Positions 57,328 through 60,215 of a stretch of 64,000 bases of DNA are shown here, piece by piece (position 1 is the stretch's first letter; the number at the start of each line of letters is the position of its first letter). The notes beneath the pieces are model-generated. The model ran no database searches, was not told where the DNA came from, and saw only the letters and a program-made list of their open reading frames with translations. The position numbers and the translations under genes were made by a program. The DNA is from Phycisphaerales bacterium (GTDB taxonomy: Bacteria; Planctomycetota; Phycisphaerae; Phycisphaerales; UBA1924): the NCBI GenBank assembly GCA_029260345.1, contig JAJDDK010000002.1:62001-126000 (forward strand), given 5' to 3'.

Positions 57328-60215
57328 CCGTCCTCTGCGCGATCCTTCAAATTGCACATAAGTTCAAACGCCTGCATCGGCGACATCGAATTTAAATCGA
57401 GCTTGCGCAACTCATCCACGACCGGATGATCCACGTACTCAGTAAACAGCGACATCTGCGGCGGCGCGCTGCCCTTTTTCGCCGCCTTGATCGCCTCAGC
57501 GCCTTCATGTGTCACGGCCAGACGCTCCAGCAGTTCGCGGGCGCGGGTGACGACGCCGCTGGGGAGGCCGGCGAGTTTGGCGACGTGGATGCCGTAGGAC
57601 TGATCCGTGCGGCCTGGCGCGATGCGATGCAGAAACACGATCTCGTCACCCCATTCGCGCACTTGCACGTGCAGGTTGCGCACGCGCTCGGGGGACTCGT
57701 CTTCGAGCGTGGTGAGTTCGTGGTAGTGGGTGGCGAAGAGTGTGCGGGGGGATATGGATTGAGGAAGCCCCTCACCCCCGGCCCCTCTCCCGGTGGGAGA
57801 GGGGGGATTGGTGGCACAGCTCTCTGAGCTGTGCGTTGAGGGTGAATTCGAGAGCTCAACGACCGCTTCCTTACGGGCGCGGTTCGGATGATCACTCTGG
57901 CCCTCATCCGATCCGCCTGCGGCGGACCACCTTCTCCCAGTGGGAGAAGGAGAAGACAGTCGTTCCGCGATCGCCCAGGCGAGTGACAGGCCGTCGAGTG
58001 TGCTGGTGCCGCGGCCGATTTCGTCGAGAATGACAAGCGAGCGCGCGGTGGCGTGGTGCAGAATGTTCGCGGTTTCGACCATCTCGACCATGAAGGTGGA
58101 CTGGCCGGCGTGCAGCGCATCGTCGGCGCCGACGCGCGTAAAGATACGATCAGTCAGGCCGATGGTTGCGCTTGATGCAGGCACGAACGAGCCGGTGTGC
58201 GCGAGCAGAACGATCAGCGCGACCTGCCGGATGTACGTGCTCTTGCCCGCCATGTTGGGGCCGGTGATGAGCGCGAGCCGCGCGGGCTGTTCGGTTGAGC
58301 CGAGAATCGCGTCGTTGGGGACGAAGTTATCGCCGAGAGTGCGCTGCAACACTGGGTGCGCGCCGTCGCGGATGTCGAGGACGGGGTCGTCCGCGATGTC
58401 GGGCTTGATCCAGCCGCGGCGTTGGGCGACGCGAGCAAAACACGCCAGGCAGTCAAGCTCCGCAACGAGGTGCGCGAACTCGCGGATGGCGCCCGCTTCA
58501 CGAACGCCATGCGCGCACAGGTCATTGAACAAGTGCTGCTCGCGCTCGATGGCGCGCGACTCCGCCGTGGTGATCTTGTCTTCAAACTCCTTGAGTTCCG
58601 GCGTGATGTAGCGCTCGGCGTTCTTGAGCGTTTGCTTGCGGATGAAGGAGTCCGGTGCGTGCCGCGCTTGCGAGCGAGTGAGTTCGATGTAGTAGCCGAA
58701 GACGCGGTTGTAGCCGACCTTGATGCCGGGGAGTTCGTGTTCCTTGACGATGCGGGTCTGATACTCGGCGAGCCATTTGGAGGCGTCAGTTTGTAAGCCG
58801 CGAGCTTCGTCGAGTTCGGCGTCCACGCCATCGCGGATCAGGCCGCCCTCGCGTAAGTGCGTCGGGGGATCATCAACACACATCTCGGCAATGCGATTCG
58901 CCAGCGGCGTGAGCGTTCCGCGCAGCTCGTGGAGCGCTTCGCGCCGTTCAGCGAGAGCCGGTGCGCCTTCCAGCGCATCAAGCAGATCATCCAGCTTCGC
59001 CAGCGTCCCGCCCAGCGCCACCACATCCCGCGGCGTCGCGCGGCCCACGCCCAATCGACCCGCGATGCGAGCCGCATCCTGCATCGCGCCAAGCGCATTG
59101 TCGATTGCGGTCGCGGTCTGCCCGTCTTCGCGCAACGTCGCAACGCACCTCTGCCGTGCTTCGATTGCATCACGATTCGCCAGAGGACGCAACAGCCAGT
59201 CACGCAACAGCCGCCGCCCCATCGCCGTGCGGCAACCATCCTTCCCCTGAAACACACCGAGCAATGATCCCTCGGCGCCGCCGGTGCGCATGGTTTTTTC
59301 GACTTCGAGCGCGCGCAGGCTGGTGGCGTCAAGGAGGAGCGAGCCGCGCGGGTCTTCGCGCATGGGCGGCGCCAAATGCGCGAGGCGCGACGCCTCACCA
59401 TCGGAATCAATCGCTTGCGTTTCGTGCAGATAGCGAATCACCGCGCCGGCAGCTGCGAGGGCCGGATCGTCGTCGCTCAAGCCGAAACCGCCGACGGTCG
59501 CAACGCGGTACTGCGATTGAATTGCCTCGCGCGCCTCTTCGAGCCGAAACTGCCAGCTCGGTCGCGGCGTGCCGGACACACCAAGCGCCTCAAGAATGCG
59601 CGTGGCGCGGGGCGGCGTCTCGCCGGTTGCGGTTTGTGCGACGAGCAGTTCGTTCACGCCGCGACGGGCGAGTTCGTCCATCGCGCGTGCGGCCGTCGTT
59701 TCAAACAACGTGAACGCGCCGGTCGAGACTTCGACGACCGCCATCGCGACGCGGCCGTCATCGTCATCGCCCGCATCAAGAAAACAGATTGCCCCGAGGT
59801 TGTTGCTGGCGTCGTCCTGAAGCAGCGACTCATCACTGAGCGTTCCGGGCGTGAGCACGCGTTGCACGGCGCGCTCGACGACACCTTTCGCTTCCTTCGG
59901 ATCCTGAGTCTGCTCGCATACCGCGACGCGATGCCCCGCCTGCACCATCTTTCGCAAGTAGCCGTCGACGGAGTGATACGGCACGCCCGCCATCGGCACG
60001 CCGCTGGAACGCTCGGTCAGGGTCAAGCCGAGGACGCGATGCACGAGAACGGCGTCCTCGTAGAACATTTCGTAGAAATCACCCATGCGGAAAAAGAGCA
60101 CGCAGTCCGGGTGCTGCTTCTTGAAGGTGAAATACTGGCGCATCGCGGGCGTGACGCGCTGTTCGCTAGCGGCGGCAGCGGCGGTCGTGGCCCGTTCTTT
60201 GGTCGCGTCAGTCAT
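57315..60215 (-). CDS. mutS: DNA mismatch repair protein MutS with in-frame repeat insert
   Basis: 966 residues. The N-terminal mismatch-binding domain has MRQYFTFKKQHPDCVLFFRMGDFYEMFYEDA, including the F-x-E-like contact region, and GVPYHSVDGYLRKMV. The ATPase has ITGPNMAGKSTYIRQVALIV and SLVILDEIGRGTSTLDGLSLAWAIAERL. Residues 754-822 (57750-57956) are extra: about 60 residues encoded by genome repeats stand between that helix and RTLFATHYHELT. The frame is open throughout. Start is ATG at 60215, with the tRNA gene upstream excluding the longer frame. Confidence 0.95.
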   Translation of the reverse strand: MTDATKERATTAAAAASEQRVTPAMRQYFTFKKQHPDCVLFFRMGDFYEMFYEDAVLVHRVLGLTLTERSSGVPMAGVPYHSVDGYLRKMVQAGHRVAVCEQTQDPKEAKGVVERAVQRVLTPGTLSDESLLQDDASNNLGAICFLDAGDDDDGRVAMAVVEVSTGAFTLFETTAARAMDELARRGVNELLVAQTATGETPPRATRILEALGVSGTPRPSWQFRLEEAREAIQSQYRVATVGGFGLSDDDPALAAAGAVIRYLHETQAIDSDGEASRLAHLAPPMREDPRGSLLLDATSLRALEVEKTMRTGGAEGSLLGVFQGKDGCRTAMGRRLLRDWLLRPLANRDAIEARQRCVATLREDGQTATAIDNALGAMQDAARIAGRLGVGRATPRDVVALGGTLAKLDDLLDALEGAPALAERREALHELRGTLTPLANRIAEMCVDDPPTHLREGGLIRDGVDAELDEARGLQTDASKWLAEYQTRIVKEHELPGIKVGYNRVFGYYIELTRSQARHAPDSFIRKQTLKNAERYITPELKEFEDKITTAESRAIEREQHLFNDLCAHGVREAGAIREFAHLVAELDCLACFARVAQRRGWIKPDIADDPVLDIRDGAHPVLQRTLGDNFVPNDAILGSTEQPARLALITGPNMAGKSTYIRQVALIVLLAHTGSFVPASSATIGLTDRIFTRVGADDALHAGQSTFMVEMVETANILHHATARSLVILDEIGRGTSTLDGLSLAWAIAERLSSPSPTGRRWSAAGGSDEGQSDHPNRARKEAVVELSNSPSTHSSESCATNPPSPTGRGAGGEGLPQSISPRTLFATHYHELTTLEDESPERVRNLHVQVREWGDEIVFLHRIAPGRTDQSYGIHVAKLAGLPSGVVTRARELLERLAVTHEGAEAIKAAKKGSAPPQMSLFTEYVDHPVVDELRKLDLNSMSPMQAFELMCNLKDRAEDGQSS
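57750..57956. repeat. Composite repeat insert inside the mutS coding region
   Basis: 207 bp, 69 codons. It contains a left-facing unit at 57899-57951 identical over 53 bp to 45692-45744, a second degenerate unit at 57772-57816 (CCCCTCTCCCGG-N-GGGAGAGGGG), and a perfect 9-bp hairpin GCACAGCTC-TCT-GAGCTGTGC at 57814-57834. All reading frames but the mutS one contain the repeat's own features; the mutS frame stays open. Confidence 0.9.

Follow-up and report, generated by a model that had tools for sequence, protein, structure and literature searches.

The RPEs of Rickettsia are dispersed palindromes that have been reported from intergenic DNA and also, in frame, from within genes of known function (PMC10969869, PMC3733652), and their in-frame insertion is described in a review (PMC10969869). 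A second described system is that of the GTAG/CGTC REPs, which Di Nocera et al. (2013; PMC3733652) reported inside genes, many of them genes for DNA replication and repair; intragenic REP clusters encoding 43–82 aa are on record, REPs have also been reported from the PVC superphylum, and MutS is not named in the main text of that paper. BIMEs are described as clusters of several palindromic units, and the enterobacterial RU-type intragenic repeats as small mobile repeats that add coding sequence to genes (PMC2759123). Among the titles and abstract openings covered by our literature search, there was no other account of in-frame palindromic repeats in planctomycetes or in MutS.

The locus studied here lies in a 64,000-nucleotide stretch of a Phycisphaerales genome (assembly GCA_029260345.1, contig JAJDDK010000002.1, positions 62,001 to 126,000), referred to below as the window. 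The host genome is a draft of 3.40 Mb in 8 contigs with 96% completeness. The mutS gene occupies 57315–60215 on the minus strand and encodes 966 aa from an ATG at 60215, a longer open reading frame (ORF) starting at 60407. Its product matched Pfam MutS domains I–V and scored over the NCBIfam cut-offs for PRK05399 and mutS1, so that the domains, the equivalog score and the motifs that we take to be Walker A and Walker B agreed on its identity. The domain V match consisted of two stretches, the first of which stopped where an in-frame insert starts. This insert (57750–57956, minus strand) comprises exactly 69 codons and separates the Walker B helix from the strand TLFATHYHEL, the position at which the earlier note on this DNA had claimed about 60 extra residues. 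It stands between Leu753 (57957–57959) and PRTLFATHYHEL, with the Pro of PRTLF starting at 57749, and the peptides spanning its two junctions would be AERLSSPSPTGR and GEGLPQSISPR, although, as the native loop varies, the boundaries of the insert could shift by a few codons. Walker A, Walker B, and the adjacent invariant residues are unbroken. MutL was represented by one strong match in the genome, a 652-aa ORF with no internal stop.

Sixty genomes, none of the same genus, were taken as relatives, and 55 of them had a mutS match. The closest MutS among the 60 relatives drawn, that of G009 from the same family, was only 67% identical, and the best named records were an uncultured bacterium at 55% and a Phycisphaerae record at 46%, matches that, for MutS, point to a planctomycete host. 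In a 56-row alignment, which included all 56 MutS loci and printed only extra segments of at least 15 aa, the 69-residue insert was absent from all 55 relatives, and the gap that the earlier note had proposed to look for was thus seen. From DEIGRGT to HYH, the window MutS has 102 residues versus 39 in G009, and the same interval spanned 36 to 63 residues in 50 relatives (36 to 46 in 45 of them), the pattern having missed five of the 56 loci (L043, L049, L051, L144, and L148). From GRGTS to HY, the distance was 33–37 residues in 42 MutS sequences from named records of many phyla, these being the 42 of 80 loci that passed a length filter.

When the 207-bp insert was used as a whole-genome query, it gave at least 58 matches including itself (a lower bound, as are all genome match counts for such queries here), and these fell on four different sub-parts. 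In plus-strand order, the insert is a mosaic of module A (57771–57806), the palindromic repeat CTCACCCCCGGCCCCTCTCCC-GGT-GGGAGAGGGG; module B (57811–57837), the palindrome GGTGGCACAGCTC-TCT-GAGCTGTGC, which is the weakest of the four; module C (57860–57890), the repeat CCGCTTCCTTACGGGCGCGGTTCGG; and module D (57899–57953), a two-hairpin unit with the layout GGCCCTCATCC-(variable stem)-CACCTTCTCCC-AGT-GGGAGAAGG. The earlier note had recognized repeats in the insert and counted two units; the repeats stood, and the number was revised to four modules. Within module D, 53 bp (57899–57951) are identical to a copy at 45.69 kb (45692–45744), which lies between the called genes 44322–45272 and 45945–46208, so that both the identity reported previously and its location outside called genes were confirmed. 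Genes were called with our own codon-score script, not with a published gene finder. The 45.69-kb copy is the nearest one of module D and belongs to an intergenic cluster of the same units at 45403–45742, and a second intergenic group of these units was located at 47524–48199. An old conserved extension of MutS that resembles repeats by chance would fit the variable loop length of the family, but it is extremely improbable given the 53-bp identity to an intergenic copy and the absence of the insert from every one of the relatives with a mutS match.

The abundance of the modules was assessed in a sample of 864 kb, consisting of the window and 40 stretches of 20 kb, or about 25% of the genome, with one random sequence set as the control for each core and motif count. 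Counted as strand matches of the exact palindromic cores, by which a palindromic site scores twice, the A core was found 40 times and the D core 36 times, versus 0 for both in one Markov control. Module C had 14 sites versus 0 in the control, the pattern of module B itself had 8 versus 4, and B2, a pattern related to module B, had 17 versus 0; module B is accordingly the least certain of the modules as a dispersed family, judged by these counts. The degenerate core C[CT]TCTCCC-N-GGGAGA[AG]G occurred 152 times in the genome and its reversed pattern 0 times, and at least one copy was present in 26 of the 60 other genomes, with a patchy distribution and 1 to 101 copies each.

The dispersed palindromic repeat was seen both between and inside genes of the sample, with 12 of the 73 cores falling within called genes and the other 61 lying beyond them. 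Since the coding fraction was 0.86, the cores avoid genes (binomial p 1e-40), and those inside genes are therefore survivors. Cores joined within 400 bp formed 32 groups of 1 to 6 cores, 12 of which were single, and mixed clusters of several insert modules were found elsewhere as well (e.g., L008, L010, and L015). The MutS insert thus resembles a BIME in being a mosaic cluster of several palindromic units, and differs from it in the units themselves and in that one cluster lies within a gene. Like the Rickettsia RPEs, the repeats are dispersed and palindromic and occur between genes as well as in frame inside them, so that the comparison with Rickettsia drawn in the earlier note was apt; the phylum is another one, however, the insert is pieced together from four modules, and the likeness is one of description, not of sequence. 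Units inside genes, a repair gene included, are shared with the GTAG/CGTC REPs, whereas the constant GTAG or CGTC tag is not: by eye, CGTC stood at columns 9–12 in 13 of 38 aligned units (CGAT in the MutS unit), and GTAG was at neither end of the 49 aligned columns. The RU-type repeats likewise supply coding sequence from small repeats, but their units are reported to be longer and MITE-like (103–168 bp; PMC2759123), and this likeness also is one of description. The phenomenon itself is known. The present case adds its occurrence in a planctomycete, a MutS insert built of four modules, the recurrent occupation of two MutS loops by repeats of unrelated kinds, and an internal stem that covaries.

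This stem was examined in 38 aligned D units, namely those with exactly 21 nt between the arms; looser matching gave 87 hits, many of them overlapping or spurious. Each unit begins with the 9-nt arm CCCTCA[CT]CC, followed by the variable-stem hairpin and then by a constant hairpin. The variable stem diverged widely among the copies while its self-complementarity was mostly kept. With both helices pooled, 91.4% of the cells paired versus 80.2 in shuffles, and 76 cells had both sides changed versus 26.5, neither value being reached in 500 shuffles; these shuffle figures are not probabilities because the copies are related. When the helix partners were slid, every pairing measure dropped. Two of the five covariation measures were unremarkable (7 pairs with changes on both sides, reached by 76 of 500 shuffles, and 18 further pair types, reached by 437 of 500). 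Changes on both sides were seen at six of the eight pairs of the variable helix, but two of the eight were unpaired in 20 and 15 of the 35 distinct rows. The pattern suggests that the folded single strand, be it DNA or RNA, probably either is the form under maintenance or gives rise to the copies. In all 38 units, the base at arm position 7 tracked pair 32–48 of the constant hairpin, T occurring with T-A in 16 units and C with C-G in 22, including the window units at 57901–57949, 45694–45742, and 48094–48142. By eye, the pyrimidine arm matches a parallel third-strand pattern of the constant hairpin at 8 of 9 positions and is thus intramolecular-triplex-like, and two subfamilies related by descent would account for the correlation equally well.

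The earlier note had also stated that the frame stays open over the repeats. The MutS frame is indeed stop-free throughout, insert included, but an open frame is weak evidence by itself, since the insert has three open frames out of six. Single 49-bp units were stop-poor (n = 38): a stop interrupted minus frame 1 in all 38 units, minus frame 0 in 7 units, plus frame 0 in 4, and each of the other frames in 0 or 1. Openness was not raised in intergenic repeat windows, where 0.192 of frames were open across 60 windows, as against 0.198 across 2000 other intergenic windows. The open frame was consequently rejected as a sign of selection.

The insert has a strong RNA fold, with a z score of −6.8 and none of 200 shuffles as low. 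Such a stable fold would be compatible with removal or skipping of the insert during expression, by intron-like splicing or ribosome bypassing, which would leave the mature MutS without it. Against this, bypassing would require neither an open frame nor a length divisible by three, and the insert has both; its parts are dispersed repeats. Family scans of MutS gave no intein match, and no Rfam family reached its gathering score at 57500–58200, the two sub-threshold matches (17.2 and 14.1 bits versus 40 and 45) being taken as chance. Removal or skipping is accordingly regarded as very unlikely, and the multiple-of-three length together with a frame free of stops leads us to infer that MutS is still translated through the insert.

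The structure of the region was predicted with AlphaFold for 381 residues, using 40 aligned sequences, that is, the query and 39 of the 42 MutS sequences of the broad set (L090, L091, and L096 were left out). In this model, the insert corresponds to residues 169–237, with pLDDT below 50 at 174–176 and 181–229 and a stretch without predicted secondary structure between about 170 and 238, while the helix and the strand that flank it had block mean pLDDT values of 89 to 93. Compared with the PDB, the model matched MutS structures best. The modelling suggested in the earlier note thus gave a low-confidence, mostly structureless insert on a MutS ATPase fold, and the loop is probably disordered with the fold predicted to be intact.

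Cores inside other genes of the 864-kb sample also split conserved domains in frame. The affected proteins are MqnC, RarA, BioF, and AstD, names that are the best-fitting NCBIfam ones and score below the curated equivalog cut-offs, with the Pfam domains above theirs. BioF carries two kinds of repeat. The loop segment of RarA has 95 residues versus 57 in G009, and RarA segments spanned 48 to 114 residues in the 16 of 20 loci caught by the pattern; the BioF segment has 97 residues versus 46 in G009, two of five loci having been caught. Two other dispersed motifs, V and B2, were located in frame within a DUF58 protein, at about residues 164–182, its family match consisting of two stretches with the position known for the first (57–153). 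V or B2 motifs also fall within the matched family regions of RdgB, squalene-hopene cyclase (SHC), and prolyl-tRNA synthetase (ProRS), which probably hold in-frame captures too. Judged from these sequences, MutS is no special case, and the same kind of event has occurred in other genes of the genome. Four further candidates were not counted as captures: L180:15972–17093 and the L184 core are both upstream of the conserved start, the L186 core lies outside the hydrolase match, and the C module in L200 precedes the methyltransferase match. As a separate observation, a second dispersed motif, reading GGTGVSPV in one frame, was noticed inside five called genes of the sample (L184:10524–10544, L197:6617–6636, L196:14354–14374, L173:10989–11009, and L178:1431–1451). 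Among the RarA loops of relatives (L247, L249, and L252–L254), the G012 copy L254 resembles another repeat capture by eye.

The recurrence of such inserts bears on the assembly as well. The sequence comes from a draft of several contigs, and a chimera or a collapsed repeat might in principle have produced the insert; no module, however, exceeds about 55 bp, the reading frame and the domain pick up again exactly behind the insert, and inserts of this kind recur in several further genes and in further genomes. An assembly error is thus highly improbable.

The long MutS loops of four relatives (G007, G010, G012, and G025) were tested for a repeat origin, with G015, G018, G019, G029, and G057 left out. 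The MutS of G010 has 25 extra residues in the same post-Walker B loop, and their DNA had at least 46 matches in the G010 genome including itself, the matched stretch being the insert, although this count may be partly due to low complexity because the repeat family is simple and of short period. A further copy of that repeat stands in frame before Walker A of the same protein, and another one lies upstream of the likely start. In G012, an insert before Walker A is an unrelated repeat with at least 50 matches in that genome including itself, and here too the matched stretch is the insert. The 53-aa loop of G025 had no other match in the G025 genome and, being a query of the same size, provides a useful control for the high counts in G010 and G012. 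The loop of G007 matched two other places in its genome, both weakly. Long MutS loops therefore also arise without obvious repeats, and a repeat origin of every long loop was rejected, as it held for G010 and G012, weakly for G007, and not for G025. By these matches, two relatives have independently captured unrelated repeats in MutS loops.

Unrelated repeats in the MutS of three lineages, together with the hits in RarA and probably RdgB, raise the idea that the inserts are adaptive loops that tune repair and mutation rate, and Di Nocera et al. (2013; PMC3733652), who reported many REPs in repair genes, speculated on mutators. Since several of the other proteins hit are unrelated to repair (MqnC, BioF, AstD, and DUF58, and probably ProRS and SHC), such tuning is without direct support; the insert is predicted at low confidence and without structure, and a loop that spans 36 to 63 aa among 50 relatives may simply be permissive. 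We therefore consider adaptive tuning improbable. A bolder version, which we likewise hold to be unlikely if somewhat less so, is that in this family repeats land recurrently in two loops of MutS, one following Walker B and one preceding Walker A, where lineages independently turn unrelated selfish repeats into protein, and that the decorated loops alter the output of mismatch repair. If true, repeat expansion and mutation rate would be linked.

The genome contains RAYT-type genes, with three Y1_Tnp matches over the cut-off. No A/D core with up to two mismatches was found at any of the three loci within about 1.5 kb on each side, and a RAYT origin of the A/D units was rejected on this ground. 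At L207 (G000:C5:684044–684388), the RAYT-type gene adjoins an apparent ATP synthase alpha gene, and a different REP-like palindrome was seen by eye in inverted copies on both sides within about 1.5 kb; this locus is likely a REPtron unrelated to the A/D units. At L209 (G000:C6:148772–148996), a B2-like palindrome, CCACTGCTC-AA-GAGCAGTGG, adjoins another RAYT-type gene by eye, and module B of the MutS insert may therefore be a RAYT-borne REP.

Next to mutS, four successive small plus-strand ORFs at 55515–57327 each end, by eye, in a similar Cys-rich motif after membrane-like segments. The motif consists of two CxxC pairs followed by CGAAWR, CSAAWR, or CGAAWK, and the ORFs look like a tandem family.

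Returning to the insert, we consider it highly likely that it represents a tolerated in-frame capture of REP/BIME-like repeats at a permissive MutS loop, which would give a 69-residue loop and leave the ATPase core unchanged. The capture of genomic repeats in a repair gene, as claimed at the outset, is borne out by the insert-free MutS of the relatives, the many copies elsewhere, and the same event in other genes. A REP/BIME-like palindromic cluster, normally mainly intergenic, would have entered or been assembled within mutS after the Walker B helix, with read-through preserved. The loop would be tolerated and not selected, presumably with repair activity retained and at no cost or gain, and insertions that break the frame or the core would be lost. 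The in-frame repeats of other proteins in this genome, and the unrelated repeats in the MutS loops of two relatives, would have passed the same filter.

The first protein-coding palindromes to be described were those of Rickettsia; intragenic REPs of several species followed, and here such palindromes are met in a number of conserved proteins. To these, the present genome adds mosaics in which several repeat families are combined, and its relatives add independent captures of unrelated repeats in one core repair protein. Together they form a natural series in which to study the passage of non-coding DNA into protein sequence, to see which loops accept it, and to ask whether chance explains the hits in repair proteins.
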